Assembly (NCBI RefSeq): GCF_026210795.1
Contig: NC_089431.1
Location: forward strand, 5,580,001 to 5,644,000
Direction of reading: 5' to 3'
DNA: 64,000 bases
DNA from: Rhizophagus irregularis
Lineage: Eukaryota > Glomeromycota > Glomeromycetes > Glomerales > Glomeraceae
Of the stretch, positions 10,050 through 60,498 are shown one piece after another. The notes below the pieces were generated by a model, which saw nothing but the letters and a program-made list of their open reading frames with translations, ran no database searches and was not told where the DNA came from. The number at the start of each line of letters is the position of its first letter. Position 1 is the first letter of the stretch. Made by a program: the position numbers and the translations under genes.

Positions 10050-13000
10050 TCATCTGTATTTTCTGTCACTTTTTATTTCATGTAAATTATACATTTCATG
10101 TGCTTTATCAATATTTATTTCGGTTCCTACCCCACGTTCATAACAATATCCAAGATTATTTATTGAACGAATATGTCCCTTTTCAGCTGCTTTTTTATAA
10201 AATTCAAATGCCTTCACTTCATTTATCTCAGTTCCTATTCCACGTTCATAACAATATCCAATATCATATAACGCATTAGTATGACCTTTTTCAGCTACTT
10301 CTTTATACAATTCAAAAGCCTTGATCATATTTTCTTTAGTTCCCAATCCACATTTATAATAATTTCCAAGTTTATTTAATGAATCAATATGTCCCTTTTC
10401 CGCCGCTTCCTTATATAATTCAAGTGCTTTAATCACATTTTCTTCAGTTCCTAATCCATATTGATAACAATTTCCAAGCCTAGATATTGAATCAATATGA
10501 CCTCTCGTGGCTGCTTTTTCATAAAATTCAAATGCTTTATATTCATTCTTTTCGGTTCCTATCCCATATTCATAACTATATCCAATATCATTTATTGCAG
10601 CAATATGTCCCTTCTCTGCTGCGTTTTTATATGACTCAAACGCCCTAGCCTTATCTTTTTTGGTTCCTATTCCACATTCGTAACAATGTCCAAGATTGTA
10701 TATTGATTTAATATCATCTTTCATAGCGGCTATTTCATATAATTTAAATGCCTTCACTTCATTTTTTTCAGGCCCTATTCCATGTTCGTAACAATATCCA
10801 AGATTATATATAGAATCAATCTGACCTTTTTCAGCTGCTTCATTATATAGTTCAATTGCTTTAATTATATTTATTTCAGATCCTATTCCATATTGATAAC
10901 AATATCCAAGACTATTTATTGAAATGATATGGCCCCTTTCAGCCGCTTTTTTATATAATTCAAACGCTTTTAATTCATTTTTTTCAGTTCCTATTCCATA
11001 TTCATAACAATATCCAAGATTATAAATTGAATTAATCAGATCTTTTTTGGCTGCTTCTTCATACAATTCAAATGCCTTGATCTCATTTTTTTCAGTTCCG
11101 ATCCCATGTTGATAACAATATCCGAGATAATTTAATGAATTAATGTGACCTTTTTCAGCTGCTTTTTTATATAATTCAAATGCTTTTGTTTCGTCTTTTT
11201 CAGTGCCTATTCCGTAACGATAACAATATCCAAGGTTAAAGATTAAACTAATGTGACCTTTTTCAGCTGCTTCTTTATATAATTCAAATGTTTTGGTTTC
11301 ATTTTTTTCAGTTCCTATACCATATTCATAACAATATCCAAGATTATTAATTGAATTAATTTGACCCTTCTCAGCAGCATCTTTATATAAGTTAAATGCT
11401 TTTGTTTCATTCTTTTCAGTTCCTATTCCATGTTGATAACAATATCCAAGATTATTTATTGAAGTGAGATGATTATTTTTAGCCGCTTCTTCATACAATT
11501 CAAGTGCTTTAATCACATTTTTTTCAATTCCAATACCATGTTGATAACAATACCCAAGATTATATATTGAATTAATATGACCATTTTCAATTGCTTTTTC
11601 ATATAATTCAAATGCTTTTAATTCATTCTTTTCAGTTCCTATACCATATTGATAACAATAACCAAGTTGAAATATTGATTCAACAGAATCCTTTTCAGAG
11701 GATTCTTTATATAATTCAAATGTTTTAACTTTATCTTCTTTAATACCTATTCCATATTTATAAAAAATTGCTAATAAAAGATTAATATTTTGTAATTTAC
11801 TAGTATCCTTATTATTCAATAAGTAATTAAACATTTCAACCTCATTTTTGTTATTTGATATAATATTTTGTTTAACTATTTGAATATAATTTTCAATATT
11901 AATTTCTTTTTGTATAGAATTTTCATGTAAAAATAATAATTCTTCAATAATCTTTTTATAATTTTCATCATCATCATCATCATCATCATTTGTTATTGAA
12001 ATTTTTTCTGTTAACATATTATCATATTCTTCCATTAATTTATCAATTTTCGCTTGTAATGTAATATTAGTAATACCAGAACTTGATAAACTATTACTTG
12101 ATAAACTATTACTAATACCATTAATACCAAAATTATCACTATCATCAATAGTAAAATCATCATTAATTTCCGATAAAGTTTTAGTTTCACCTATTATATT
12201 CAAATTAATTAATTTTAATTCAGAAAATACTTGTTGCATATCCGGTCTATTATCTGGATTATCTTGCCAACATTCTGAAAAGGGTAACAAATAAAATATT
12301 TATTAGTACAGTATTAACATAATTAAAAAAAAAACAACATAATTTATTACCATTATATATTTTAATATAATCAATTGGTGTATCAGAAGTTGGAGTTTCC
12401 CTTTTTCCATTTAAAATTTCTAACATTAAAGTTGGTTTTTGAAAAGGTTTATCATAAGTTTCAAAAGGTTTTTTTCCTGATGATAACTCCCATAAAAGTA
12501 CTCCTACACTATATACATCAGATTTTTTGTTCGATTTATAATGATTCTTATTATTATCATCATTTTTTTGTTTTTTGAAATGTTGTGGATCAATATAAGG
12601 AATCATTCCAAATATATCTTTTGGTGAATTTGATACTTCAGCTAATCTACGTGAAAGTCCAAAATCTGCCAATTTAATTATATTCTGATGAATCAATATA
12701 TTATTTGAATGCTATTTATTTTGATAAAAATGAAATAATTAAATTAAGTATTAAATTTGAGTAAATTTTAAAATAATAAATAAATAAATTTCTTACTAGG
12801 TCACGATGAATAATATTCTTTTGATGTAAACATAAAACCGCATCAGCAATTTGTATTGCAAATTTTATTTTCATATCCCAATCTAATTTATTAAAATTCT
12901 TTTTTAAATAATTCCTTAATGTACCACTATCAGCGTATTCGAGAATTAGTAAGTAATCTGGATTCAAATCATCTTCATTATCTAAGTAAAAATAAAAAAT

Positions 13001-17223: not shown

Positions 17224-19027
17224 ATGTTTTATGTTTTTCTTTTACAATTTTTTGTAATATCATTTTCGTTAACGATATTAGTAGAATCAGCAACAAATGC
17301 AAGATATGCACACGTTTCAGCACTAATTAACGATCAATTATTTATAATAGGAGGTCAACCTACTAGTTTTCAATTGAAAGGATCAAATGATGTATTTTAT
17401 TTAGATTTAAAAAAATCATTTAATTTGCAAGATCCATCGTTAGTAGATATAACTAGAACATCGGGAATGCCATTAACAATTTCATGGGCGAGTAGTACTG
17501 TAGTAAATAAAGATGGGATATTAATATATGGAGGTTATACTTGGAGTTTAAATTCTGGTAATTTAGATAATGGTGACAATGCTTTATATTTATTTAATGC
17601 AACTACAAAACAATGGACAATACCAACTGTAAGTGGTGCTCCACCACCTAAAAGGAGGGAAATGAAAATTGTTTCTGATAATAATGAAAACATTTTTATT
17701 TATGGTGGAATTCAATTGGGTGAAAATCCTCAATGGTATACGGATATGAATATTCTAGATGCTCAATCTGAATTCAGATGGGAATTAATTCAAATGAAAA
17801 ATTCTCCAACTTATCCTAGAGCTGATTATACTGCTACTATGTTACCGAATGGTGTGATTGTTTATATTGGTGGTAGAACTCGTGCAGTAAGAGATGCTTC
17901 AATTTTGGAAACTGAATTGAATATAAAACAGGTATTTAATTTAATCGATTATGTTCAAAAAGAATTTATTTTTATTATTATTATTAAGAAAAAAAAATTC
18001 TGATTTTTAGATTACATTATATGATACAAAAGATGCTACCTGGTATCCAATGGTAAATATTATAAATATACATTTATATATATATGTGTATAGTATTTAT
18101 TTATTTAACCTTTGCAATTAATTTACTAGGAAACGAGCGGAGAATTAATAGATAATAGGAATAGTCATTCAGCAGTATTGACACCGGATGGAAAAATAAT
18201 AATATATGGAGGAGCGCAAGGACCTAATTTAATAACAGCATCGCCAAGTTTAGCTATATTGGATACAAGTACTTCAGTATATACGTGGTCAGTACCTACG
18301 ATATCTTCACAGTTTAGTCCTCCCCCATTGATTCTTCACACTGCAGATTTATATGGTGATTACATGATTGTCGCCTTCGGTCAGTAAATTTTGAACACTT
18401 TTTTTTTTTTTTTTTTTTTTCCTTTTATCCTCTAAAGTATTAAATTTTTTTTTATTTCAATTAGGAAATGTAACTAATGGAGCAACATCACCTGTAGAAA
18501 TAAATTCAGGGATATATATGCTAGATACAAAAACATTTTCGTGGATAACATCATATACCCCAAATTCAACTTCTCCATCTGATAAAAACGATCCAATTTC
18601 AATTGGAATAATAATAGGAATAGTATGTGCGATAATAGTATTTTTAGTTGTAGCTAGTATAATAGGATGGATTTTTTATAAAAGATATAGGGAAAATAAT
18701 AATATAGAGCATGCTATTCCTACACCTGGAAGTGGAATGGACAGAGTTGAAAGAGATGAAAGAGATGAAAGAGACGAAAGAGATGAATTTGGTGGTAATA
18801 GAATTAGTAATATTACTAGTGTTACCGACAATAGTAACAACGAAAATGTCAGGAATAGTTCAACCACAGACGTTACTGTTATATCTCATTCTAGACCTAC
18901 TTCTACCTACAAAAGTACTAGTAATTATGGGTCAACCCCTTATGTTCCTTCATATACTCCTCCACCTTATTACACTCCACATGGCGGTTTTACTCCCAAA
19001 AATCCCCCATATAGTACAAGAAATTAA
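17224..19027 (+). CDS. Kelch-repeat type I membrane protein (copy 1)
   Basis: Four exons: 17224-17931, 18011-18052, 18130-18379 and 18465-19027 (520 aa). Exon 2 is only 42 nt; the exon 3 donor is GTCAGT. Residues 1-22 form a signal peptide (FLLQFFVISFSLTILVES). Kelch blades follow (NDQLFIIGGQP, GILIYGGYTW, NIFIYGGIQL, GVIVYIGGRT, KIIIYGGAQG), giving a galactose-oxidase-like propeller outside the cell. A single transmembrane helix lies at about 379-404, then a cytosolic tail with four RDE repeats (about 427-439) and a Pro/Tyr-rich end (YVPSYTPPPYYTPHGG). The design suggests a surface or secretory-pathway adhesion or receptor role; the ligand is unknown. The paralogue at 50.2 kb shares exon borders. 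Confidence 0.88.
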
Positions 19028-27191: not shown

Positions 27192-30100
27192 TTACATACC
27201 TAATGACCCCAGATCTTTAATTATATAATCATTCAAATCTTCAGCTTCACTTACTAGCATTTCATTTGCTTTTACACTAGTTTGTGAATCTTTACTTTCA
27301 AGAATTTCATTCAATTTTTTACTAGTAAAACCAAGTAAGCGACTTGTATAACATGCTTGTGGATGTGATTCAGTAACAAGATTGTTATGTCCAATTGTTG
27401 CATTTACAAATTCCATAACATTGCATTTTAATTCTTCACTAATTGTATTACCATAAGGAAGGAAAATCCATTTTCCAATAATATCTAAAACTTCTTTAGA
27501 AGATGGCCTCTCTAATGGATCCTCATTCCAACATTTTTTCATCAAATCTACATAACATTGTGGAGTATTTTCAATAATTTCAGGACGTTCACCTTTACAA
27601 ATACTTAAACTAAGTTGAATATCATGTGCTCTATTATTAAATGGTGGTACCCCAGATGTAAATTCCCACATAATCATAGAAAAACTATATATATCACTAG
27701 CTGGAGTATAAGGTTTGCCTCTTAAAACTTCAGGAGCCATAAATGGTATAACACCATAAATATCATACTTTTCCACAAACGATTTTACAGGTTGACATAA
27801 TCCTAAATCACTAATATAAATTTTACTTTCATTATGATTTAAAATATTACCATCATGAAAATCACAATGAATAAGGTTTTGTTCATGTATCAAACAAAGT
27901 CCAGACATTATTTGATACAACATATATAACTTTTGATTCCAACCAACTTTGATTATTGTTGTTAAATTTTCTCTTAAATTACCTTCGTTTGAATAATCCA
28001 TTACTGCCAAATATTTCAAAGTATTTGGATCTTCTGTAAATCCATATAAGTTAATAACATTATTTGAACCTAAACAACTTAAATGATATTTCCACTGTAA
28101 AAAATAAAAATAAATATATTAGTATAAATAAATTATAATTTAAACAATTTAAATTAAATAAAATAAATAATATGTATCATACTTCAATTAAATATTCATT
28201 TATATTTTCATTCGAATAATTATGACATTTAAGAATTACTTCTTTATTTCCATTATCACTTAACCAATTAGCTTTGTATATAATACCAAATCCTCCTTTA
28301 TTAAGATTTTTAACATTTTTAAATTTATTATAAGGAATCCATTTTAGATTATTTTCAATAATAAATTCATTCATAATTGCATTTCTACATCTATAATTAA
28401 AATAATTAAGTTGTATGTTTTTTTTTAAAAAAAAAAATATTATTAACACTTACCCTAAATTTAAATAGAAATTTAATAAAATATAAAACTTAGTTTTATA
28501 TGTTAATATGTAGTAATCTATAATTTACAACTTACTGCCATCATTATGATCATTTAATAATCCTTTTGCAGACTTGGTACTATCGTTACCAACTAAATTA
28601 CCAAATAATTTTTTAAATAAAAAAGTCAGTCAATTAAATTGCAAATAAGTATCACAAATAAATATAAAAATAATTTATAACTTACAAGCTTAAACAAATT
28701 ATCAGGTAAATTTTTGAATGAAAAACTTTAGCTAAATTATACATAAATATTATACCAAAGTATAATAATAATAAAATTAAATAAGCAACTTACCCTCTAT
28801 AATATTAAATAAAATTTGATGAATAATTTGATTAGTTTATATTATATATAAATAATATCTGGTATATAATAATTATAACTTACTTCCTATATTATTAAAT
28901 AATTAAATAAAGAATTTAATTAGTCCAAATATATGTCATAAATATATAATCAAATTAAATAAATCACTTACGAACTATATAATTTTTTTAAATGAAAAAT
29001 TTAGTTTAAAATATATGTAAATATGTATACATGTCAACTACCAACTCGTCCAGCAGATGTGTACATTAAAAAAATATGCAAATATCATATGAATAAATTA
29101 AATAAAAACTTACAAACTACATTGTTAAATAATTTTAAATAAACAATTTGATTAGTTCAATATACGTTATAAATATCATATAACTAGGTATACTGGTATA
29201 GTGAAATTAAATAAATAACTTACTTCCTGTATTATTATTAATATTAAACAATTTAGTTTAATTATTGTTTAAATTATATATAATAAAAAAGAATTAAAAA
29301 AATAACTTACTTCCTATATTTTTTTAAAAAAATAATTGGTAGGTTTATAATTAATGTATTATTAAATTTATATAAGTAATAATAAAATAAATTGATAACT
29401 TACGATCTAATTAAATAAAGAATTCAGTTAGTAAATAATATGTAAATATCATATAAATAAATAAAAAACTCGTAGAATTAAATAACTTACTCCCTATATA
29501 TAATATATTATTAAATGATTTGTTTGTTTAAACAAAATATTTAGTTCAAATTATATATAAATAATAATCATAAATGTATAATGATAGATTTAAATAAATA
29601 ATTTATAACTTACGAGCTATATAAATCATTAATTTTTAAATAATGAATTTAGTTTAAATTATATTTAAATATTATATAAAATATGCATATTAGAATTAAA
29701 GTACAAGCTAAAATAAATTATTAAATAATTTTAAAATAAATAATTAGTTAGTTTGAATGTTATAAATATATAATAATAGAATTGAATAAATAACCTATAA
29801 CTTACCAACTAAAATAATTCACATTAAATAATTTAAATTATATATATAAGTATCATCATATAAAATTGTGATAAACTAAAAAAATAATTCATAACTTACA
29901 AACTAAATAAAATAAATTGTCGATTTTTTAATAAAGAATTTAGTTAGATTAAATCAAATGTAAACATTGTATAATAAAATTGAATAAATAACTTACACTC
30001 TATATTATTAAATAAAGAATTTAGTTATTAATATGTAAATATTGTATAAATATATAATAATGAAATTAAATAAATAACTTACCCCCTATATTATTAATAA

Positions 30101-30885
30101 TTTTTTAAATAAAAATTTAGTTAGTTTAAACTATATAAAAATATCATAAATAAACAATAATAGATTAAATAAATGTAACTTACAATCTAAAATAAATTAC
30201 CAAATATTTGTTAATTTATATTATATAAAATAACAAGAAACATAGATGATATATAACTTACGCCCTGTGGTATTATTAATTATTAATTATTAGATGTATA
30301 AAAATATGGTTGTACAAATTAAATATATCACTTACAATCTAATTATTTAAATAAAGAATATAATTATTTTGAATTATATGTTATGTTAAATAAAAATTTA
30401 GTTATCGAATATTAAAATTTAAAATACATTAAAAATAAAAAACTGATAACTTACTAACTATAGCATTTATTAATCATTAAATGAATTATTTAGTTATGTA
30501 AAAATTAAAAAAAAATAAGTAATACATCAAATAATTCAATAAATGTCCAAATTGTCAGGTAGCCTATCAACTTACAAGCTAAATTATTAATTATTAAAAT
30601 ATTTTTAAGTAAACAAGAATAATAATTAGTTAAATTATATATGAATAGTATAATAGAAATTAAGAAACTATTGATTTATAAATGCATTCAAATTATTTAC
30701 AAATATTGTAAATATTATTTAGTAATTAAACAAAATTTCGTCTTGTTTAGAATATTAATATTTACCTCTAAATTTCTTAGTACTACTTGAAACTAGTTTT
30801 ATTAAATTGCAAATTTGCTTAGAATTGAATCTTAAGTTGTATTAAATATTTATGCTATTTTACCTTCATCATTATTATAATCCAT
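27192..30885 (-). CDS. Protein kinase with a 5' array of single-codon microexons
   Basis: The 3' part is secure: exons 28183-28390 and 27192-28094 encode a kinase. It has a lead-in KWIPYNKFKNVKNL, glycine loop GGFGIIY, ILK lysine, HCDFHDGNIL (catalytic Asp kept, HRD Arg replaced), DLG instead of DFG, an APE motif, DIYSFSMIMWEF and a C-terminal helix extension. Upstream, exon 28536-28592 (STKSAKGLLNDHNDG), a one-base exon at 28454, twenty 3-nt exons (28686-30578) and a first exon 30864-30885 (MDYNNDE) can be joined. With these the total is 1251 nt, open for 416 aa. An alternative adds a 2-nt exon (30766-30767) and a later acceptor (exon 28536-28572), giving 410 aa, also open. A simpler transcript starting at ATG 28374 is possible. 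The N-terminus is therefore a prediction; the kinase is not. Confidence 0.7.
28686..30578 (-). repeat. Array of twenty 3-nt microexons
   Basis: On the minus strand the motif [T/C/A]AG, three bases, GTAAGT (one GTACTT, two GTAAGTG) recurs at 30576-30578 CTT, 30455-30457 TTA, 30336-30338 ATT, 30262-30264 GGC, 30184-30186 ATT, 30083-30085 GGG, 29997-29999 AGT, 29900-29902 TTT, 29806-29808 TTG, 29705-29707 CTT, 29614-29616 CTC, 29491-29493 GGA, 29404-29406 ATC, 29311-29313 GAA, 29224-29226 GAA, 29114-29116 TTT, 28972-28974 TTC, 28884-28886 GAA, 28794-28796 AGG and 28686-28688 CTT. The spacers (71-139 nt) share a GTAAGTTATTTATTTAATT start, in most cases an AACTAA branch motif, and an AATAATATAG end. 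The three bases vary while their borders are fixed. Confidence 0.8.
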
Positions 30886-31199: not shown

Positions 31200-32833
31200 G
31201 TCTTGAGTAGTTTTGCAACGGGAAACACTTAGAATAGTCCCCAAGTGGCACTGGAGACGGGGTTACTTTGAAACATTGGCCTTTGGAAGTTGGGATGCTA
31301 GCGCTTTGGAGTCAACGTGGGTTTTTGGAGGGAGGTCTGGCGGACGAAGAGGAGCGTAAGCAAGAAGGTATACTTTGGAGTAGTGTGTTGGTGGAAGGGT
31401 TAGGAGGCGGTTAGCTTTTTCTGGTGGTTGTTTTGGTTTGGTGCTTTTTACCCTTTCCTTTTTCTTTTCCTTCGTTTTGTTTTTTTTTCGTCTTCGTTTT
31501 TGGTTTGGCGCAGTCATTTTTTGTGCGCGTGCCCCTTAAGGTGTATGGAAAGCCGTCCTTGACAAAAGGTTGATGTCCAAACATCATGAAATATAATATT
31601 TAGACATCATGATGGTATGTCTAGACATCATGTTTGATATATGTAGGATGATGTTTATGGAAAGCCATCCTTGACAAAAGGTTGATGTCCAAACATCATG
31701 AAATATAATATTTAGACATCATGATGGTATGTCTAAACATCATGTTTGATATATGTAGGATGATGTTTGTACATTATTTAACATGATGTGAAAGACATCA
31801 ACCGACATGATGTCTAGACATCATGCTGATCAAATTACCAAATATAGTATATTTATGAGTTACACAAAATAAAATTTACTATATTTGGTAACATGATGTC
31901 TAAGACATCATGTCGGTTGATGCTTGAGCATCATGTTGAATGATGTACAAACATTATTCTATATATATCAAAAATGATGTCTAGACATCATGCTGATCAA
32001 ATTACCAAATATAGTATATTTATGAGTTACACAAAATAAAATTTACTATATTTGGTAACATGATATCTAAGACATCATGTCGGTTGATGCTTGAGCATCA
32101 TGTTAAATGATATACAAACATTATTCTACATATATAAACATGATGTCTAGACATTATCCAACATGATGTCTGGATATCAACCTTTTGTCAAGGACGGCTT
32201 TCCATAAAGTTGGGGTACAAAAGAGTGACCTATTCGTTTTAGGCAAGACTTTTCAAGCATAGGGTACCAATCAAATTCAATTCTTGCGGATATGCCGATA
32301 TGCCGATCAACATTAGGGAGGCCAATCACACCAAGTCACGTGTAAAAGAAGACCCGATCTGTGGTCGCACAGTACATTGGAAGATGTGGAAACAAGGTTG
32401 AAAGCGAGCGGTATTGGTTTGCAAGAAGCGTAATTAAAGACCGCAGATTTCGCCGATGGAAGGTTTTACCTTGGGTTCATGGGGTATGTACGGAGGGGAT
32501 TAATCTGTCCTTTTAATTAGTTAATAGTCTATATAGATCTCAAATATCCTTGGGTTTTTTAGCGATCTTGCTTTTCCCCGAATTTGTAATCTAAGTAGTT
32601 ATTAATTTAATTTTTTTTTTGTGTAATATAGTGTTAGAGTTGTATATTAGTACGGGGTACTTTATCATTCATCCATGAGTCAGTAATGGGACTACAACTT
32701 CACCGTATGGGGGTAAAGGTTTTGGTATGAGGGGGGCGCTAGACTTTGTCTTTCACCAAACTCTTGATTATTTTATAAACTTTGTATGTTCTTTATCATA
32801 TGAATAATAAAGTATTTCAGTTTACCAAAAAAA
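31200..32833 (+). mobile_element. LINE-like 3' end, interrupted by a MITE
   Basis: The sequence is clearly richer in G and C than its surroundings. After the MITE insertion it continues as a UTR-like stretch to AATAATAAAGTATTTCAG followed by an A-run at 32826-32834. That looks like the 3' end of a non-LTR retrotransposon copy. No reverse-transcriptase frame is present, so the copy is 5'-truncated or only UTR. The basic 84-codon minus-strand frame at 31263-31517 is a by-product of T- and pyrimidine-rich sequence. The family is not identified; the left border is estimated from composition. Confidence 0.4.
31546..32204. mobile_element. 659-bp palindrome-rich MITE
   Basis: The terminal inverted repeats begin TGGAAAGCCGTCCTTGACAA and extend about 30 bp, flanked by TA on both sides. 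Inside, the 112-bp left end is present twice (from 31544 and 31656), a 167-bp unit is present twice (from 31807 and 31974), and the words ACATCATG and CATGATGT recur more than twenty times. It is non-autonomous; the TA target suggests Tc1/mariner-type mobilisation. It lies inside the GC-richer LINE-like segment, so it inserted later. Confidence 0.75.
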
Positions 32834-40385: not shown

Positions 40386-40813
40386 CAGTCGACTCTGGTT
40401 ATAACGAACCTGTTTGTACCGAAACCTCGCTATACCGAATCATAATTTCCAGAACCGATTTTTTATAAATAATTTCACTGGATATAACGAACTTTTATAA
40501 TAAAACACTATATAACGCATCCGAACCAAACTTAACCAGCCCCTATATATCAGCTATATAATAACTTTATACTTTCTATAACGAACGGTCATGTGACTAT
40601 ATAGTAGTCCAGGCCAATTTTATAGTGCTGGCCAGAATTACTAGTAATTTTTTCGAAAATTTATGTTAAAAGAAATTATAATTTTGGCCAGCATTACAAA
40701 TTTGGCCTAAATTACCTATAAAGAAAACTAGTTCGGTATATTATATAACGAATTCACTATATACCGAACTAAACCTCCTGGAACGGAGGGTTCGTTATAT
40801 CCAGAGTTGACTG
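40386..40813. mobile_element. 428-bp pogo/Tigger-like MITE
   Basis: The ends are CAGTCRACTCTGGWTATAACGAACC in inverted orientation (two mismatches) with TA on both sides (40384-40385 and 40814-40815). This is the TIR type and target of pogo-class Tc1/mariner elements. There is no transposase frame. Its right end lies in the 3' part of the TLDc gene copy B, so 40728-40813 is both transposon and coding sequence. Confidence 0.85.
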
Positions 40814-42177
40814 TACTGCTCAATATTTCAAGATCATCAGCACCAAATGATGGACCGTAACTACGATTATTGTAGATGGCATGCTTTTCATCTATCACAC
40901 GACTCAAAATATAATTTTCTATTTTATCACATTCAAAAGAAAATATAAAACTATCTTTAGTAGCTACAAAATCACCACTAGATTTCCATTTAATTGGATT
41001 ATATCCTCCAAGAATTTCGTTACTGTCTTTTACTTTAACAATTGTTACTGTGCGGGGTTTATTATCACAAATTTGATGAAATTTATCCTGTGAATGTCCA
41101 TCACGAGATGCACGTAACAATAATTTGAATTCATATGGAGAACTCAACTTGTCTGTGATTCCTAATCTATCGATCCATTTTAAAATTAATTCAGCATGTT
41201 GATAATTTATTATTTTTGAATCAATAGTTTTTTTACTTTCTTTGGTTATACCATATTCTGATTTATCACTTGGCTTGCTGTTAAGATCTAAAAGACTCAA
41301 AAATGCTCTTACTAAATCTTTATAAAAATCTTCTGGAAATATTTTTTCATAAGGGAATATTTTGTCTAAAAATTCTTTAGAGGTTAAATTGTAGAATTTG
41401 ATAAATGGAATAAATCGTTGTAAAGTATTCTTTAAAGTATTAAAATCATCTTGAGAACAATTTGCAAGGTCAGAGGGAATTTCAGGATTTTGAGCAAGAA
41501 CCCATTTAAGAACATGTTCCCAAATTTGAATTTCTCTCATTTGAAGGTTATCACTTTGAATAATTGTAACTAAAAGTTTTTCTGGAATTGAAGAAAAATT
41601 TAAAGAATTAAATATCTTATCTGGCTCTTTTGTTATCAAATCATTACAATATTTTTGAAGTTCTAAGAAAGTATCATTTTCAAAACTTGTTTGATATACC
41701 AAATTAAAATTTTGTTCCATCCAATTTGTTTTATTTTCAATCAAGTAGAATTGAATGCAAGTAACTAGTTCTTGGAGACTAAGTTCGCTAGCAGAAATTA
41801 AGATTTTAATCATATCCTGGGTATCATATTCCTTCAAAGAAAGCTTTCCGCCATAAATATACCTGAAATACAAAAACACATTATTAAAAAAAAAATGAAT
41901 AACATAAGTTTATAAATTATTACCTTAAGATTGGTTGAAATATTTCGGGTGCAATATTTGGTAATTTGATATGTGCTAAAGCTCCATCATTTTTATTTTT
42001 ATTAGTTGTCAAAAGTCTTTGTAAATAAGGAGAACGATAATGCAAAATGACCATATGCACACGGAAGACCTTTACGTAAGGGTCATTACCAACTTCAATA
42101 GTAATATCATAATATTCTTCATCATTCAAAATTTCGAGTAAATTTTGTGATAATTTTGGTAAAAGTTTATTATCCAT
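40728..42177 (-). CDS. BTB-BACK-TLDc domain protein (copy B)
   Basis: Two exons: 41924-42177 and 40728-41862, 61-nt intron, 462 aa. BTB about 1-105 (EEYYDITIEVG, FRVHMVILHYRSPYL), BACK about 105-225, TLDc about 245-430 (YEFKLLLRASRDGHS, SNEILGGYNPIKW). The family tail expected after GPSFGADDLEIL is absent. The frame runs instead into the inverted repeat of a pogo-like MITE, and the last 28 or so residues (reading VNSGYNEPSVPGG...) and the stop codon come from the transposon. No tail remnant is visible on the far side of the element. The last TLDc strand is thus replaced, and the effect on folding is open. Exon border, intron position and N-terminus match copies A and C, so this is a member of a local tandem pair. 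Confidence 0.87.
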
Positions 42178-43956: not shown

Positions 43957-45459
43957 TCAATTACGAACAATCTTAAATACTTCACACTCTTCTATAGTAA
44001 AATCGTTTTCAGTTTTTCTAATCGGTTTTTCATAACATGATTGTTTAGATCGTCTACAATAACTACTACCATTGTGCGCCCATATTTCAAGATCTCCTAT
44101 GCCAAATGATGGACCGTACCATTGACTATTGTAGATAGCCTTCTTTTCATCTTTCACCCGACTTAAAATATGGTTTTCAATTTTATCACAGTCAAAAGAA
44201 AATATAAAACTATCTTTAGTAGCTACCAAATCACCGTAAGATTCACTAGATTCCCATTCAAGTGGATTATATCCTCCAAGAATTTCGTTACTATCTTTCA
44301 CTTTAACAATCGTTACAGTGTGGGATTGATTATTACAAATTTGATGAAATTTATCCCGTGAATGTCTATCACGAGATGCACGAAATAATAATCTGAATTC
44401 ACATAAAGAAATTAACTTATCAGTAATTTCTAATCTATCGATCCATTTTAAAATTAATTCAACATGTTGATGAGTTATAATTTTAGAGTCCACTGTTCTT
44501 TTAATTTCTTTAGTTATATTAGACTTTGATTTGTCGCTTCGTTTACTATTAGGATCCAAAAGACTCAAAAAATCTTTTAGTAATTCTTTATAGAAATCTT
44601 CTGGAAATATTTTTTCATAAGGAAATACTTTTTCTAAAAATTCTTTAGAAGTTAAATCGTGGAATTTAATAAATGGAATAAATCGTTGCAAGGTATTCTT
44701 TAAATTATTAAAATCATCTTGAGAATAGTCTGTAAAATCAGAAGGAAGATCCGGATTTTGAGCGATTCCCCATTTAAGAACATGATCCCAGATTTGGATT
44801 TCACTAATTTGAAGGTTATCACTTTGAATAATCGTAAGTAAAATATTTTCTGAAATTGAAGAAAAATTCATAGAATTAAATAACTTATTTGGTTCCTTGG
44901 AAATTAAATTTGTACAATATTTTTGTAGTTCCAAGAAAGAATTATTCTCAAAGCTTGTTTGATATATCAAATTAAAATTTTGTTCCATCCAATCTGTTTT
45001 ATTTTCAATCAAATAAAATTGTAAATACGTGGTTAATTCTTGAAGACTAAGTTCGCTGGCAGAAACTAATATTTTAATTATATCCTGAGTATCGTATTCT
45101 TTTAAAGAAAGTTTTCCGCCATAAATATAACTAAAATATAAAAATATACACTTTTAATAAAAACAATATAATGAATATAATAATCTGTTTATAAATTATT
45201 ACCTTAAAATTATTTGAAATGTTTCAGGAGATATATTTGATAATTTAATATGTGATAAAGTTCCATCGTTTTTCTTTTTATTAGTTGACAAAATTCTTTG
45301 CAAATAAGGAGAACGATAATGTAATATAACCATATGAGCACGAAAAATTTTTACATGAGGGTCATTACCAACTTCGATAGTAATATCATAATATTCTTCA
45401 TCATTTAAAATTTCAAGTAAATTTTGTGATAATTTTGGTAAAAGTTTATTATCTTCCAT
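43957..45459 (-). CDS. BTB-BACK-TLDc domain protein (copy C)
   Basis: Two exons: 45203-45459 and 43957-45130, 72-nt intron, 476 aa. It has the same architecture as copies A and B and is the only one in the window with the complete C-terminus: after GPSFGIGDLEIW come AHNGSSYCRRSKQSCYEKP and EECEVFKIV. BTB about 1-105, BACK about 105-225, TLDc about 250-470. The exon join differs slightly (S-YIYGG instead of R-YIYGG). By family knowledge it may dimerise and act as a Cullin-3 adaptor or in oxidative-stress response; nothing in the sequence says which. It serves as the reference for judging what copies A, B and D have lost. Confidence 0.9.
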
Positions 45460-50178: not shown

Positions 50179-52568
50179 ATGTTTCGAATATCTAGAATAT
50201 TAAAAATTTTATTTTCATTATTTTCATTTAAATTTATATTAACTTTATGGATTATAATAAACATTTTAAATAAAGTTCAATCCCAATTTACGCTTAAAAG
50301 AAGGTTTACACATAATGCTCATTTAATTGATAATAAATTATGGTTTTTCGGTGGGGGGACTATGATAAATGGAATACTTTCTCCAACTGGAGATGTATTT
50401 TATATAGATTTAACAAAACCATTTGATACGACTAATGTTCCATATGTAGCAAAAGCGGCAAGTCCATTTTCATGTGCGTGGTGTCTAAGTGCTATTGGGG
50501 GAGTTAATCAATCAAAAATATTTTTCTTTGCAGGACTGATGGTTAGACAAGATTTACCTAATGTTTTAACGACTTCAATGATATATTCTTTTGATATTAA
50601 GACTCAAACGTGGTCACCAGCACCGGCAATGAAAGGAATGGCATATACTAGACGTAGAGAATTACAGCCTGTTACTGATAAAGATGGAAAAATTTATATG
50701 TTTGGTGGTGGATCTGATATGTTGTTGGGCTTTCAAACTATTCAAGTCTATAATACTATGAGTATTTTAAATTCTGTTGATAACACTTGGACTGCGGGGC
50801 CTCTAATTAATCCTCCTTTGTCTAAAATTGACTATACTGCTACTTTATTACCAAATGGAGATATTGTCTATATCGGTGGTTCGCAAACTGACGTGAATGC
50901 AATTCATTTTGATGTCATTAGTATGAATAAGGTTAGTTTCAAAATATTTTGCTATCGCTACTACTAAGGTTTGACTAATAAAATTTTATTTTAATACCCT
51001 TTTTTTTAAGATTGATATATACGATACAATTGGAAATACTTGGTCAACAATGGTAATTATATGTAAATAATTATCGATAAATTTAATATTTATTATTAAC
51101 GTATTAAACAATTAATTTAGACAGCAACCGGGGAAACGATTACAGAAAGAACGGGTCATACAGCTGTATTAAGTATGTCAATTCTGATATATATAATTCA
51201 AATAAAAAGGATATTATTTACTTATCATCGCTTTTTTTTTTATCTCAATTTATAGATAAAAAAGGAGAAATAATAATTTTTGGAGGAGTGTATGCGCCAA
51301 CTTTAGTCGCATCTCAACCACAAATTGCTGTATTGGATACTTCAGTTAATCCTTTTCGTTGGTCCATTCCTATTGTAAATTCTAAAGAAATTAATCCACC
51401 ACCTCTCATATTTCATACCGCAAATCTTGTCGAAAATTATATGATTGTTGCTTTCGGTAATTTTTATATATTATTTTTGTAATTAACGTAAATTTGATCA
51501 CTTATATTATACATTTTTTTTCCTAAAATATTAGGAAATATAACCAGAAGCAATGCAAATGAGGGACAAAGCGATCAATTATACGTTTTAGATATAAATA
51601 CTTTCACATGGGTTAAAAATTATAATCCGCTTAATAATTCGATCCCCTTTCAAGAACCACAATCAAGCAAATCTTTGGATAAAACGATGATCATTATAAT
51701 AGTAGTTATAGTGGTTGTTATTTTTATCGGTGTTGCAATTGGCGTAATAATTTATCGTCGTAAAATTAAACAATTAGATGATAAATTAACGGTATATCAA
51801 CCTTACATTGTGGATCAGCAAGTTCCCGCATCTCAAATAGACTCTGAGAGTATTTACACATCAAGTAGTAATGTTCCAGTGACATCAAAAGATATTAATC
51901 AATTTAATAGAGATATCAAGCAACTACCAAGTATACCAAGTAATTCAAGTGGGATTTCATCTGTTAATCATAATTATGCTAGTGCTAATATAACACATGG
52001 TGCTAATGATACTAATCACTATGTCAGTAATGATACAGTACGTCAATATGTGGATAATAATAATAATAATCTGGCTCACCAATATGCTAGTAACAATAAT
52101 ATAACACGTCAATCTTTGGGTAATAAAAACAATGTGGCTCATCAGTATGCTAGTAATAATAATACGATACGCCAAAGTGTGGGCGGTAATAATAACAATG
52201 TGGCCCATCAGTATGCTAGTAATAATAATACAATACGTCAAAGTGTGGGAGGTAATAATAACAATGTGGCTCATCAGTATGCTAGTAATAATAATACAAC
52301 ACGTCGAAGTGTGGGCGGTAATAATAACATGGCACATCAATATGCTAATAATAATAATAACACGACACGCCAATATGCTGGTAATAATAATACAGCACAT
52401 TATAATACTGATACTAATATAGCACCGTCTCATGAAAGGTTTAATTTACCTCCTGATCAACCTTATCGTGTTGTTATGATGAACACTGAATCTGGTGAAA
52501 TGTATATCCCACCAAATGCACAAACCACTTCCAATTATAATAATTTAAATAGATTTTCACAACAATAA
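50179..52568 (+). CDS. Kelch-repeat type I membrane protein (copy 2)
   Basis: Five exons: 50179-50931, 51011-51052, 51121-51172, 51256-51456 and 51535-52568 (693 aa, all phases consistent). Residues 1-36 are a long signal peptide ending KVQS. Kelch blades follow (NKLWFFGGGTM, KIYMFGGGSD, GDIVYIGGSQ, EIIIFGGVYA). One transmembrane helix lies at about 400-422. A cytosolic tail of about 270 residues is dominated by Asn, His, Gln and Tyr with a 22-residue tandem repeat (NNNVAHQYASNNNT type). Compared with copy 1 it has one extra intron (51173-51255) inside what is a single exon there, and a wholly different tail. The 42-nt exon is conserved in both. Likely a surface propeller protein with an intrinsically disordered, possibly aggregation-prone tail. 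Confidence 0.88.
52051..52401 (+). repeat. 66-bp coding minisatellite
   Basis: About five copies of a 66-bp unit (core AATGTGGCTCATCAGTATGC, then AATAAT runs) in frame with the Kelch copy 2 tail. The three central copies are nearly identical, so copy number is probably still changing. An antisense frame (51957-52433) is open only because of the repeat. Confidence 0.85.
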
Positions 52569-55927: not shown

Positions 55928-57295
55928 ATGATTCTCGACTTTATAAATAACTTAATAAATGAAAATTTTCCGACTAGTTCATCGTCGAACGATGACTGTG
56001 AAAATTTAGAAGCTGGAAAAGTTTACGATGATACTAGCGGAGGAACTTTGAGTGATAGATTTTCGCTTCATGTTGTACCGGTCGATGAAAAGAATAATTT
56101 ATTTATAAATAGAATCTCTTATAATACACAAACTAACGCTTATTATGAGAATGGAATTTTATCTAATAAATATTTAAAGAAATGGGCGGAAGGAACTTAT
56201 CAATGGGATAATATTAAATTAAAAATTGAATATGATTGGAAGAAAATATATTTAGCAAGAGTTCCTGATACCGAAAAAAGAACTCCTATCAATGAAATAA
56301 TGAATGATGATGGTGAAATTTCTTGGAAATTTGATTATCGTATTGGTAGTTACATTATTAATTCTCTTATTTTAAGATTATCATTTGGTACTTTTGATAA
56401 TTCTGCGAGCGTTCAATGGTTTATTAAACCATTACCCACGATGAAAAATCCAGACCCAGGTTGGAAATTAATTCAAGTTAATACATCTGGTCAAAATGTA
56501 AATGAGATAGTTGATGTTAGTCAATTTGTTAAAGATGAATATGGTTTTATATTACAAGTTCGTTTAAGTGGCGGTGACGAATCTCCAATTAAATGGCAAA
56601 AATCTCAATTATTTAGACAAAATTTTAGTGTATTGGATAAAAATTTAGAAGCTGAAAATGATGAAACTTTTGGATTGGACGTTAATGTTGAATTAAAACC
56701 TGATGTTATTGTCGACCCTTTAATAAAATTATCGGGTTTGAATGATTCAACGCGTGATTTTGTTATCCATTATGAATTTTCGGCTGATGATTACCAAATT
56801 ATTTCAAGTTCTAGCTCTCTCGATAAGGAAATCGACAAAGAGGAAACCGATAAGGAAGAAATCGATAAGGAGGAAACCGATAAGGAGGAAATCGATAAGG
56901 AACCTAAGGATCTTCATGTTCACTCAGAGTTATTATCAAATCATTTTAGTAAATTATTGGAATCAAAAATGGGTGAATCACAAGACAAATCAATCACTTT
57001 GAATGATTCTGATATTTCTTATGAATCATTAGAAATTATTCTTAATTATCTTTATACTGGTAAACTTCCAATCATTGAAAGTTATGATAATTGGATCACA
57101 TTATTTTGTGATGCTTCTAAATTTTTTATACCTACTTTAGTTCAAAGATGTGAGATGGAATTAAGAAGTTATTTGAATCATGATAATTTAAATGAGGTTA
57201 AAACCATTGCTAATGAATATGGTGCTGAGCAATTACTACGATATTGTGATAATTTTGAACCACCATTAAGTCAACAGTTGATTGAAATTAGTTAA
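55928..57295 (+). CDS. PAW-like domain fused to BTB (copy E)
   Basis: Single exon, 455 aa. Residues about 45-232 match the order of motifs in the C-terminal PAW domain of peptide:N-glycanase: a YENGxxS segment, W93, DWKKIYLAR (103-111), ISWKFDYRIGSY (131-142), ASVQWFI (160-166), VSQFVKDEYGFILQVRLSGG (197-216) and WQKSQLFRQ (223-231). In PNGase the domain binds high-mannose glycans. Residues 299-326 are a DKEE(I/T) repeat encoded by a 24-bp tandem repeat (56820-56905). Residues 328-430 are a BTB fold (VHSELLSNHF, ILNYLYTGKLP). BTB proteins commonly recruit Cullin-3, so the protein may be a glycan-reading ubiquitin ligase adaptor; that is inferred. There is no transglutaminase core, so it is not itself a glycanase. 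Confidence 0.8.
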   Translation: MILDFINNLINENFPTSSSSNDDCENLEAGKVYDDTSGGTLSDRFSLHVVPVDEKNNLFINRISYNTQTNAYYENGILSNKYLKKWAEGTYQWDNIKLKIEYDWKKIYLARVPDTEKRTPINEIMNDDGEISWKFDYRIGSYIINSLILRLSFGTFDNSASVQWFIKPLPTMKNPDPGWKLIQVNTSGQNVNEIVDVSQFVKDEYGFILQVRLSGGDESPIKWQKSQLFRQNFSVLDKNLEAENDETFGLDVNVELKPDVIVDPLIKLSGLNDSTRDFVIHYEFSADDYQIISSSSSLDKEIDKEETDKEEIDKEETDKEEIDKEPKDLHVHSELLSNHFSKLLESKMGESQDKSITLNDSDISYESLEIILNYLYTGKLPIIESYDNWITLFCDASKFFIPTLVQRCEMELRSYLNHDNLNEVKTIANEYGAEQLLRYCDNFEPPLSQQLIEIS

Positions 57296-59295: not shown

Positions 59296-60498
59296 ATGTA
59301 TCTTAATATTATGTATAATATGTTAAAAGAAAATTCTTCAAGTAATAGTTTATCAAATGGAAATTTAAACAACAACTCTAATATATATTATAATAATAAT
59401 GAAAATTCTTTATACGAACCTATAGAAACCGCCGAAGTTTATGATGAAACTAATGGAGGAATATTTTGTGATAAATTTTTACTTCATGTTATACCAATTA
59501 AAATGAATAATAATAATAATTTATATAAGAATAGAATATCATATAATACAAAAACCAATGCTTATTATGAAAATGGTATTTTATCTAATAAATATTTAAA
59601 AAAATGGAAAGAAAGAACTAATGATATAGAATTGATAAATGATGATGATGGAGAAATTTCTTGGAAATTTGATTATCGTATTGGAAATTATATTATCAAT
59701 TCTATTGATTTAAGATTACCACTTGGTATGTTAAATAATTCTGCAAGTATTCAATGGTTTATTAAATCATTACCCACGATGAAAAATCAAAATCCAACAT
59801 GGAATTTAATTCAATTTAATCAAAATATACATCATGTAAAAGAGATCGAAGACGTTACTCGATTTGTTAAAAATGAATATGGTTTTATATTAATGGCGCG
59901 TTTAAGAGATGATGATGAAAAACAAGATTTGAATAAATTAATATTTTTCAGGGACATTGATGATGAATCTTTTGGATTTGATGTTAGGGTGGAATTAAAA
60001 CCTGATATTATTATTGATCCTTTACCAGAATTACTTTTTTCGGATTATGAATCAATAAATGATTTTATTATTCATTATGAATTTTCTACTGAGGATGATC
60101 AAAATATTGGAAGTTCTGGTAATTCTAATAAGAAATCTAGGGAATTTCATGTTAATTCCAAGATATTATCAGAAAGATCAGATTATTTTAATACGTCAAT
60201 TAAATCAAACGATAAAACACTCGTATTAACTAATACTGATATTCCTTATAATTCATTAAAAATTATTATTAATTATCTTTGTACTGGTACACTTCCAAAT
60301 ATTGAAAGTTATGATAAATGGATTACATTACTTCGTTATTCTTCTAAATTTCTTATACCTACTTTAATTCAAAGATGTGAGAAGGCATTAAAAGGTTATT
60401 TGAATCATGATAATTTATGTGAGGTTGAAAATATTGCTAATGAATGTGATGCAAAACAATTATTACGATGTTGTCAGAATTTAAACTGTCTTAATTGA
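59296..60498 (+). CDS. PAW-like/BTB protein, shortened PAW (copy F)
   Basis: Single exon, 400 aa, paralogue of the gene at 55928. After an Asn/Ser-rich start (1-40), the PAW-like part (about 60-235) keeps YENGILSNKYLKKW, ISWKFDYRIGNY and VTRFVKNEYGFIL. It lacks the roughly 32-residue piece with W and DWKKIYLAR, and the WQKSQLFRQ segment is reduced to LNKLIFFRD. BTB about 282-385 (FHVNSKILSERSDYF, IINYLCTGTLP) is intact. The acidic DKEE linker of copy E is absent. The missing PAW pieces are the most conserved in PNGases, so glycan binding is doubtful here even if the BTB works. Both copies read in the same direction 2 kb apart: a tandem pair. Confidence 0.78.
   Translation: MYLNIMYNMLKENSSSNSLSNGNLNNNSNIYYNNNENSLYEPIETAEVYDETNGGIFCDKFLLHVIPIKMNNNNNLYKNRISYNTKTNAYYENGILSNKYLKKWKERTNDIELINDDDGEISWKFDYRIGNYIINSIDLRLPLGMLNNSASIQWFIKSLPTMKNQNPTWNLIQFNQNIHHVKEIEDVTRFVKNEYGFILMARLRDDDEKQDLNKLIFFRDIDDESFGFDVRVELKPDIIIDPLPELLFSDYESINDFIIHYEFSTEDDQNIGSSGNSNKKSREFHVNSKILSERSDYFNTSIKSNDKTLVLTNTDIPYNSLKIIINYLCTGTLPNIESYDKWITLLRYSSKFLIPTLIQRCEKALKGYLNHDNLCEVENIANECDAKQLLRCCQNLNCLN

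Follow-up and report, generated by a model that had tools for sequence, protein, structure and literature searches.

Here we examine a protein kinase gene of the arbuscular mycorrhizal fungus Rhizophagus irregularis in which a short 5' region and the kinase exons are separated by a serial array of three-nucleotide units, each set between a splice acceptor and a splice donor. The gene lies on the minus strand of a 64,000-nucleotide stretch (assembly GCF_026210795.1, contig NC_089431.1, positions 5,580,001 to 5,644,000; hereafter the window, in whose own numbering positions are given). We hold with high confidence that such arrays are constitutive exons of single-codon length, which would be fully spliced in genomic order and in phase 1, one residue per exon, and the mature messenger RNA (mRNA) would then carry all of the triplets. 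This reading is carried by the codons that would form where one triplet meets the next: across 18 arrays, none of 599 such adjacent pairs yields a stop.

In the window, twenty AG-NNN-GT units run from 30578 to 28686 on the minus strand, 19 with the donor GTAAGT and one with GTACTT, at distances of 74-142 bp between successive units, exactly as an initial annotation made from the sequence alone had described them. The exact pattern AG-NNN-GTAAGT has 19 minus-strand sites (30580 to 28690), and the rest of the window holds a single further one, on the plus strand. Scanning AG-to-GTAAGT offsets of 0-15 nucleotides (nt) in the array region returned, besides the 3-nt spacing, only two sites, both at an offset of 1 and both corresponding to the AG within the triplets AGT and AGG.

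The initial annotation noted the array at one gene; it is real there but not single, as it recurs genome-wide in a family that also has a putative 1-nt exon downstream. In the R. irregularis genome (146.7 Mb, 32 contigs), the strict unit pattern AGNNNGTAAGTNATNNNTTNANTT has 1,860 exact matches (914 + 946), compared to 4 (2 + 2) for a reversed-pattern control. With a 4-nt spacer the pattern has 10 matches (control 11), and with a 2-nt spacer 15 (control 2). We collected a first set of 20 stretches at or beside clusters within the first 100 of the 1,860 matches, on two contigs only, and a second set of eight loci chosen among the 91 genome matches of the 1-nt exon pattern (control 1). Setting aside L011 and L015, whose 2 and 1 units make no array, L029 and L035, which lack units altogether, the neighbouring stretches L025-L028, and L001-L008, which overlap L009/L010, left 18 arrays: that of the window, 11 first-set arrays and six second-set ones. 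Array ends were read through by joining L022, L023 and L024 to L021, L016 and L019, respectively, and the arrays comprise 655 units, 14 to 80 called units each, with some ends possibly cut where the fetched stretch was short.

The strict pattern recovers 157 of these 655 units (24%), a recall that, together with the 1,860 matches, leads us to extrapolate to about 7,800 units in the whole genome; 12 of the 18 arrays behind this figure are the window or were found with the pattern, and in the other six the recall is 45 of 176. The kinase exon, used as a query, finds at least 150 genome places, and by extrapolation perhaps two hundred kinase genes carry arrays. As expected for such sets, collections of prokaryote and virus contigs hold no match to the exact unit pattern.

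Across the 18 arrays, an AG stands exactly 3 nt upstream of 542 of 551 GTAAGT donors and immediately before only two of them. A CTAA-type branch motif occurs in 547 of 615 introns at a median of 33 nt to the acceptor, in AT-rich DNA and without a chance control. The introns have a median length of 96 nt, with any length modulo 3, and their G+C content is 9%, compared to 36% in the triplets. The 3 nt between acceptor and donor lie within the range of about 3-30 nt that defines microexons, and stop avoidance suggests that the sites work.

In phase 1, a junction codon consists of the last base of one triplet and the first two of the next, which lie roughly 100 bp apart in the DNA. We found no junction stop among 442 adjacent pairs from 12 arrays (shuffle mean 20.7), nor among 157 pairs from the six arrays that were fetched once the phase was fixed (shuffle mean 7.7; 1 of 2,000 shuffles as low). 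The pooled expectation for all 18 is 28.5 ± 4.1, a value of zero being reached in none of 1,000 shuffles, and counting junctions across long gaps gives 0 stops in 637, with zero in each of the 18 arrays. When units are skipped, stops appear at chance rate: joining triplets at lags of 2 to 6 (one to five units skipped) yields 26, 29, 30, 22 and 18 stops, compared to 26.2, 24.3, 22.4, 20.7 and 18.8 expected. As stop avoidance is confined to neighbours, it points to selection on a product that joins each triplet to its neighbour, which argues against single-intron removal of the array as well as against a main product with freely skipped units. Among junction codons with an expectation of at least 3, the only ones absent are TAG, TAA, TGA and GCA (12.7, 9.8, 6.2 and 3.0 expected).

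This result is robust to how units are called and shuffled. Only after L014, read from its GTAAGT units alone, had seemed to break phase 1 did we admit units with other donors; these were chosen by a splice-context score that excludes the triplet and is blind to frame. We accepted units with GTAAGT, or a score >7, or a score >2 with GTA in the 12 arrays, and units with a score >8, or GTAAGT with a score >5, in the six later ones; two L019 units with GTAGTA donors are doubtful. With gaps of up to 160 bp, no stop occurs under any of nine calling rules; these range from one that accepts GTAAGT alone, with 419 pairs and an expectation of 21.6 stops, to a very loose one, with 614 pairs and an expectation of 29.3. 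When gaps are ignored, GTAAGT-only calling gives 11 stops (28.9 expected), which fall stepwise to 0 as weaker-donor units enter, as expected if every unit counts. Because junction bases flank one intron and introns are duplicated, we also restricted the shuffle to similar introns; the expectation is then 30.9 stops at 75% identity clustering, 26.3 at 80% and 17.1 at 85%, compared to 0 seen.

The exons around the arrays agree with the same phase. Exon 1 is 22 or 13 nt long, both 1 modulo 3, in 12 of 12 arrays including that of the window (ends read by eye). A phase-blind scan gave a candidate exon 2 in 14 loci and none in four, and its length is 0 modulo 3 in 13 of the 14; in the remaining one, L012, the scan took another site and a separate reading gives 24 nt. 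Further downstream, a [T]AG-N-GTAAGT site, the putative 1-nt exon, lies 78 to 380 nt past the last unit in all 11 first-set loci and is also present in the window, and a TTTAG-N-GTAAGT-type site follows 12 of 12 arrays found independently of that site. The kinase exon was located downstream by script in 9 of the 11 first-set loci and by eye in L010, whereas the DNA there looks interrupted in L012; it is entered in phase 2 in 15 of 18 loci, the others being L012, where it was not found, and L032 and L036, where the phase is not settled. Taken together, these phases imply that the array would be entered in phase 1, that each 3-nt exon would keep it, and that the 1-nt exon would shift it to phase 2. 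The base composition of the triplets, compared to that of kinase codons, also fits phase 1 best (Kullback-Leibler divergence of 0.64, compared to 1.18 for phase 0 and 1.08), and phase 2 runs into stops in 86 of 442 pairs in the 12 arrays and 20 of 157 in the six. In transcription order, the window gene is read as follows.

30864..30885, minus strand: exon 1, 22 nt, ATG start, ends in phase 1 (MDYNNDE + 1 base)
30766..30792, minus strand: exon 2, 27 nt, phase 1 in and out (VSSSTKKFR)
28686..30578, minus strand: twenty 3-nt exons with AT-rich introns between them, phase 1 throughout; predicted peptide AFNWHWEFFASRNRRIFRKA
30576..30578, minus strand: microexon 1, CTT
30455..30457, minus strand: microexon 2, TTA
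30336..30338, minus strand: microexon 3, ATT
30262..30264, minus strand: microexon 4, GGC
30184..30186, minus strand: microexon 5, ATT
30083..30085, minus strand: microexon 6, GGG
29997..29999, minus strand: microexon 7, AGT
29900..29902, minus strand: microexon 8, TTT
29806..29808, minus strand: microexon 9, TTG
29705..29707, minus strand: microexon 10, CTT, donor GTACTT instead of GTAAGT
29614..29616, minus strand: microexon 11, CTC
29491..29493, minus strand: microexon 12, GGA
29404..29406, minus strand: microexon 13, ATC
29311..29313, minus strand: microexon 14, GAA
29224..29226, minus strand: microexon 15, GAA
29114..29116, minus strand: microexon 16, TTT
28972..28974, minus strand: microexon 17, TTC
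28884..28886, minus strand: microexon 18, GAA
28794..28796, minus strand: microexon 19, AGG
28686..28688, minus strand: microexon 20, CTT
28536..28592, minus strand: 57-nt exon, phase 1 in and out
28454..28454, minus strand: putative 1-nt exon (G), phase 1 to phase 2
28183..28390, minus strand: first kinase exon, 208 nt, entered in phase 2
27192..28094, minus strand: second kinase exon, to the stop codon; with the preceding exon it gives a protein kinase domain (PF07714, E value 1.8e-40)

The 57-nt exon looks, from homology judged by eye, like a final TTG unit whose donor has been altered (GTAACG) and which runs on to the next GTAAGT. The kinase matches the annotated protein P0001 (Rhizophagus irregularis DAOM 197198) with 100% identity over 81% of the predicted product, and the predicted N-terminus that precedes the kinase domain (MDYNNDEVSSSTKK...) is hydrophilic by eye. 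Elsewhere in the family the predicted phase-1 peptide can be strongly hydrophobic, as in L033 (AFWISFLSLVVL / GILALMAFFWELV). Predicted phase-1 peptides also include ...AFNWHWEFFASR....

Three other readings of the arrays deserve consideration. The initial annotation proposed that any subset of the units could be included, giving up to 2^20 N-terminal variants, and all units are indeed multiples of 3, such that skipping leaves the frame intact. Its view of the units as single-codon exons that do not disturb the frame agrees with their behaviour here, but inclusion of any subset does not: stops occur at chance rate in pairs that would meet if one to five units were skipped, and in no pair of neighbours, and common skipping isoforms would have faced equal selection. 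Occasional skipping remains compatible with this pattern, but the stated number of variants finds no support and combinatorial use as such appears very improbable. The alternative it offered, removal of the array as one long intron, is contradicted by the same junction-stop test; on such a view the array would be a tandem repeat that has decayed, or else a series of recursive splice points, whose triplets never enter mRNA. The introns within an array are related repeats, and the window gene keeps its frame from the 5' exons through the 1-nt exon to the kinase exon whether or not the array is included. Nevertheless, stop avoidance between triplets some 100 bp apart in the DNA (0 of 599 neighbouring pairs), their distinct G+C content and the strict 3-nt spacing genome-wide are not expected of removed sequence, and we regard this as the least credible of the three.

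The remaining possibility is that the triplets are spliced in phase 0 and that a 5-nt exon, AGTAA, takes the place of the 1-nt exon, with GTGTTA or similar as its donor. This parse is frame-consistent on the 3' side, and there are no stop triplets in the 442 pairs of the 12 arrays; the window array, as the initial annotation stated, is free of stops in both phase 1 and phase 0. In six annotated kinases (P0002, P0007, P0017, P0023, P0025 and P0042), runs rich in I/L/G/M/R lead up to SKFGKSGN or a similar ending and resemble this parse, and we tentatively take them to be the output of gene prediction avoiding a 1-nt exon; if the run in P0025, which is from R. diaphanus, is such a gene model, it hints that this species has arrays too. 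However, L033 contains TAA and TAG triplets, flanked by good splice signals, yet no phase-1 stop, phase 0 gives no cause for the neighbour effect, the 5' exons deliver phase 1, codon-position composition fits less well, and all 12 of 12 arrays have retained the GTAAGT that follows the 1-nt exon. We rejected phase 0 as the reading of the array on these grounds and give it a very small chance of being correct.

Several observations weigh against constitutive phase-1 splicing itself. The window array taken alone has 0 stops where 1.9 are expected (P = 0.06), which is only suggestive, and as a single array makes a weak test the case rests on the family. Other junction codons are also non-random, with GTT, GGG and CAT depleted (19, 12 and 19, compared to 36.1, 26.9 and 32.4 expected) and AAG, TGG and GAT enriched over the shuffle, although none of these is absent. 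Phase 0 is nearly stop-free, with 2 stop triplets in 157 pairs in the six later arrays, which phase 1 alone does not explain, and triplets starting with TA or TG are scarce in most arrays (L009-L036) beyond what phase 1 needs, with several in L033 and L036; perhaps a GTR that overlaps the acceptor AG would act as a competing donor. Two of the eight loci picked by their 1-nt exon have no array. Among annotated proteins, a query of joined phase-1 peptides (11 of the 18 arrays) drew 644 word-sharing candidates, none at an E value ≤ 10, and P0001, as annotated for the window gene, begins only within the kinase exon. Finally, contiguous-pattern and peptide searches found no spliced (processed) genomic copy. 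The contiguous pattern for the common array start has four genome matches with 3 mismatches each, and the middle 1.4 kb of these loci (L037-L040) is not recognisable as the kinase-array family; among the 150 scored of 3,624 candidates for an 89-residue predicted peptide, stop-free matches reach at most 8 residues to the left of the kinase exon.

In the two loci without an array, L029 and L035, the 1-nt exon motif is present and the fetched upstream DNA holds no array, and L035 has a degraded kinase-like stretch downstream; both are possibly family members that have lost the array. Exon 2 varies as well, being built in L017, L019, L020, L021 and L034 of repeats such as EFEGSSTKEFEGSGSEEF, whose copy number differs between genes.

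Under constitutive splicing, each intron of roughly 100 nt, with its GTAAGT donor, CTAA branch motif and AG acceptor, would be removed separately; the first two bases of each triplet would complete one codon as its positions 2 and 3, and the last base would be position 1 of the codon that follows. After the triplets, the 1-nt exon would shift the frame to phase 2 ahead of the kinase exon, and the product would have a short N-terminus and the kinase domain with a variable peptide in between, of 20 residues in the window and drawn from 14 to 80 units across the 18 arrays. Removal would probably proceed stepwise by intron definition, since simultaneous binding at both ends of a 3-nt exon is hardly feasible; the size of the introns and their donor, branch-like motif and acceptor would suit this mode.

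Comparison of units within and between loci gives a view of how arrays may evolve. L021 (with a period of 15 units) and L014 contain duplicated blocks of units in which introns and triplets alike are identical, and among 34 pairs within a locus whose flanking introns are more than 97% identical, the triplet is shared in 85%. Between loci, 376 pairs (not independent) have flanking introns that are 90-94% identical and share the triplet in 9%, with identities at the three triplet positions of 0.54, 0.64 and 0.25, compared to 0.30, 0.43 and 0.26 at random. Triplets diverging far more than introns would fit diversification of the encoded peptide, and homogenisation of introns or their independent insertion could look similar to diversifying selection. 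Arrays grow through duplication of whole intron-plus-codon units, which always keeps the frame and may allow the peptide to lengthen, shorten and change residue by residue. In L018, L019, L020 and L021, array intervals also hold short foreign-looking insertions (for example, 496 bp in L019) with the flanking splice units intact; that no phase-1 stop arises across them is as expected if each interval is an intron.

The position of the array peptide before the kinase domain and its variability suggest that it is perhaps a specificity, diversifying recognition or targeting segment of the kinase. More tentatively, and at clearly less than even odds, we consider that it could be a segment evolvable codon by codon, in which the spliceosome would join thousands of single-codon exons in order, near-identical introns would act as recombination cassettes through which residues are gained, lost and rearranged with the frame intact, and the codons would be under diversifying selection, for instance as a self/non-self or partner-recognition tag on signalling kinases.

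The window gene itself is preceded by a 112-bp unit in two head-to-tail copies (98%) at 31544-31768, and neighbouring open reading frames belong to several repeated signalling-type families. These include BACK+TLDc frames (1013-2011, 40728-41879 and 43957-45012), BTB frames with PAW or PAW-like domains (55928-57295 and 59296-60498), a frame with Sel1 repeats (10050-12290) and Kelch frames (17224-18003 and 50179-50967).

Dscam-like arrays work by alternative choice among their members. Here, the constraint holds only between immediate neighbours, in every one of the 18 arrays, which speaks against such a choice. Classical ratchet points of recursive splicing leave no exon; our arrays have a spacer of 3 nt instead of zero, and each step should leave three bases under coding selection. 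What they share with ratchet points, as far as these are treated in parts of PMC6224609 and PMC8605326, is an acceptor and donor side by side and, hence, stepwise splicing. With introners, or proliferating introns, and stwintrons (PMC8469720), they share many near-identical introns in one fungal genome. Introner copies are inserted at scattered sites with a target-site signature. Here, the repeats run head to tail inside a single gene region and are separated from one another by a codon; the introns are near copies, and the recent copies we saw are duplications of intron-plus-codon blocks.

Single ultra-short exons, such as a 1-nt exon in Arabidopsis (PMC4674806), a 3-bp exon in Drosophila homothorax (PMC7392893) and small plant microexons (PMC8831610), indicate, in the parts of these papers on which we draw, that 1 or 3 nt are usable by the spliceosome and often missed in annotation. 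Those cases concern an individual exon of an individual gene, or microexons spread over plant genes, whereas the Rhizophagus arrays have 14 to 80 in series plus a 1-nt exon, in a gene family. The nearest known kind is the micro-exon gene (MEG) of Schistosoma mansoni, which, in the sections of PMC10526429 that describe it, has exons of 3-81 bp and introns of up to 5 kbp and encodes secreted proteins varied by alternative splicing. Both have many short exons in series, down to 3 bp and, in our 18 arrays, with lengths that are multiples of 3, as well as an expanded family and a variable product. By the same partial account, the Rhizophagus arrays differ in that nearly all exons are exactly 3 nt, the introns are mutually related and about 96 nt long, the array peptide precedes a kinase domain and the signature is one of full inclusion. 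We consider them an extreme and distinct variant of this kind. Among the literature matches listed for microexons, arbuscular mycorrhizal (AM)-fungal gene structure, recursive splicing and intron gain, titles and abstract beginnings report no serial 3-nt exons, and passages of the R. irregularis assembly paper (PMC10234402) make no mention of microexons.

If correct, this would be the most extreme exon architecture known to us, with one codon per exon and up to about 80 in series, in an ecologically central symbiont, and the N-terminal regions of many kinase genes in the genome would be missing or wrong in current annotation. It would show how far intron definition can go where there is no exon to be defined, and would make the handling of 1- and 3-nt exons by the spliceosome testable in one natural system. 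It also suggests a route by which variable peptides may evolve, through recombination between introns.

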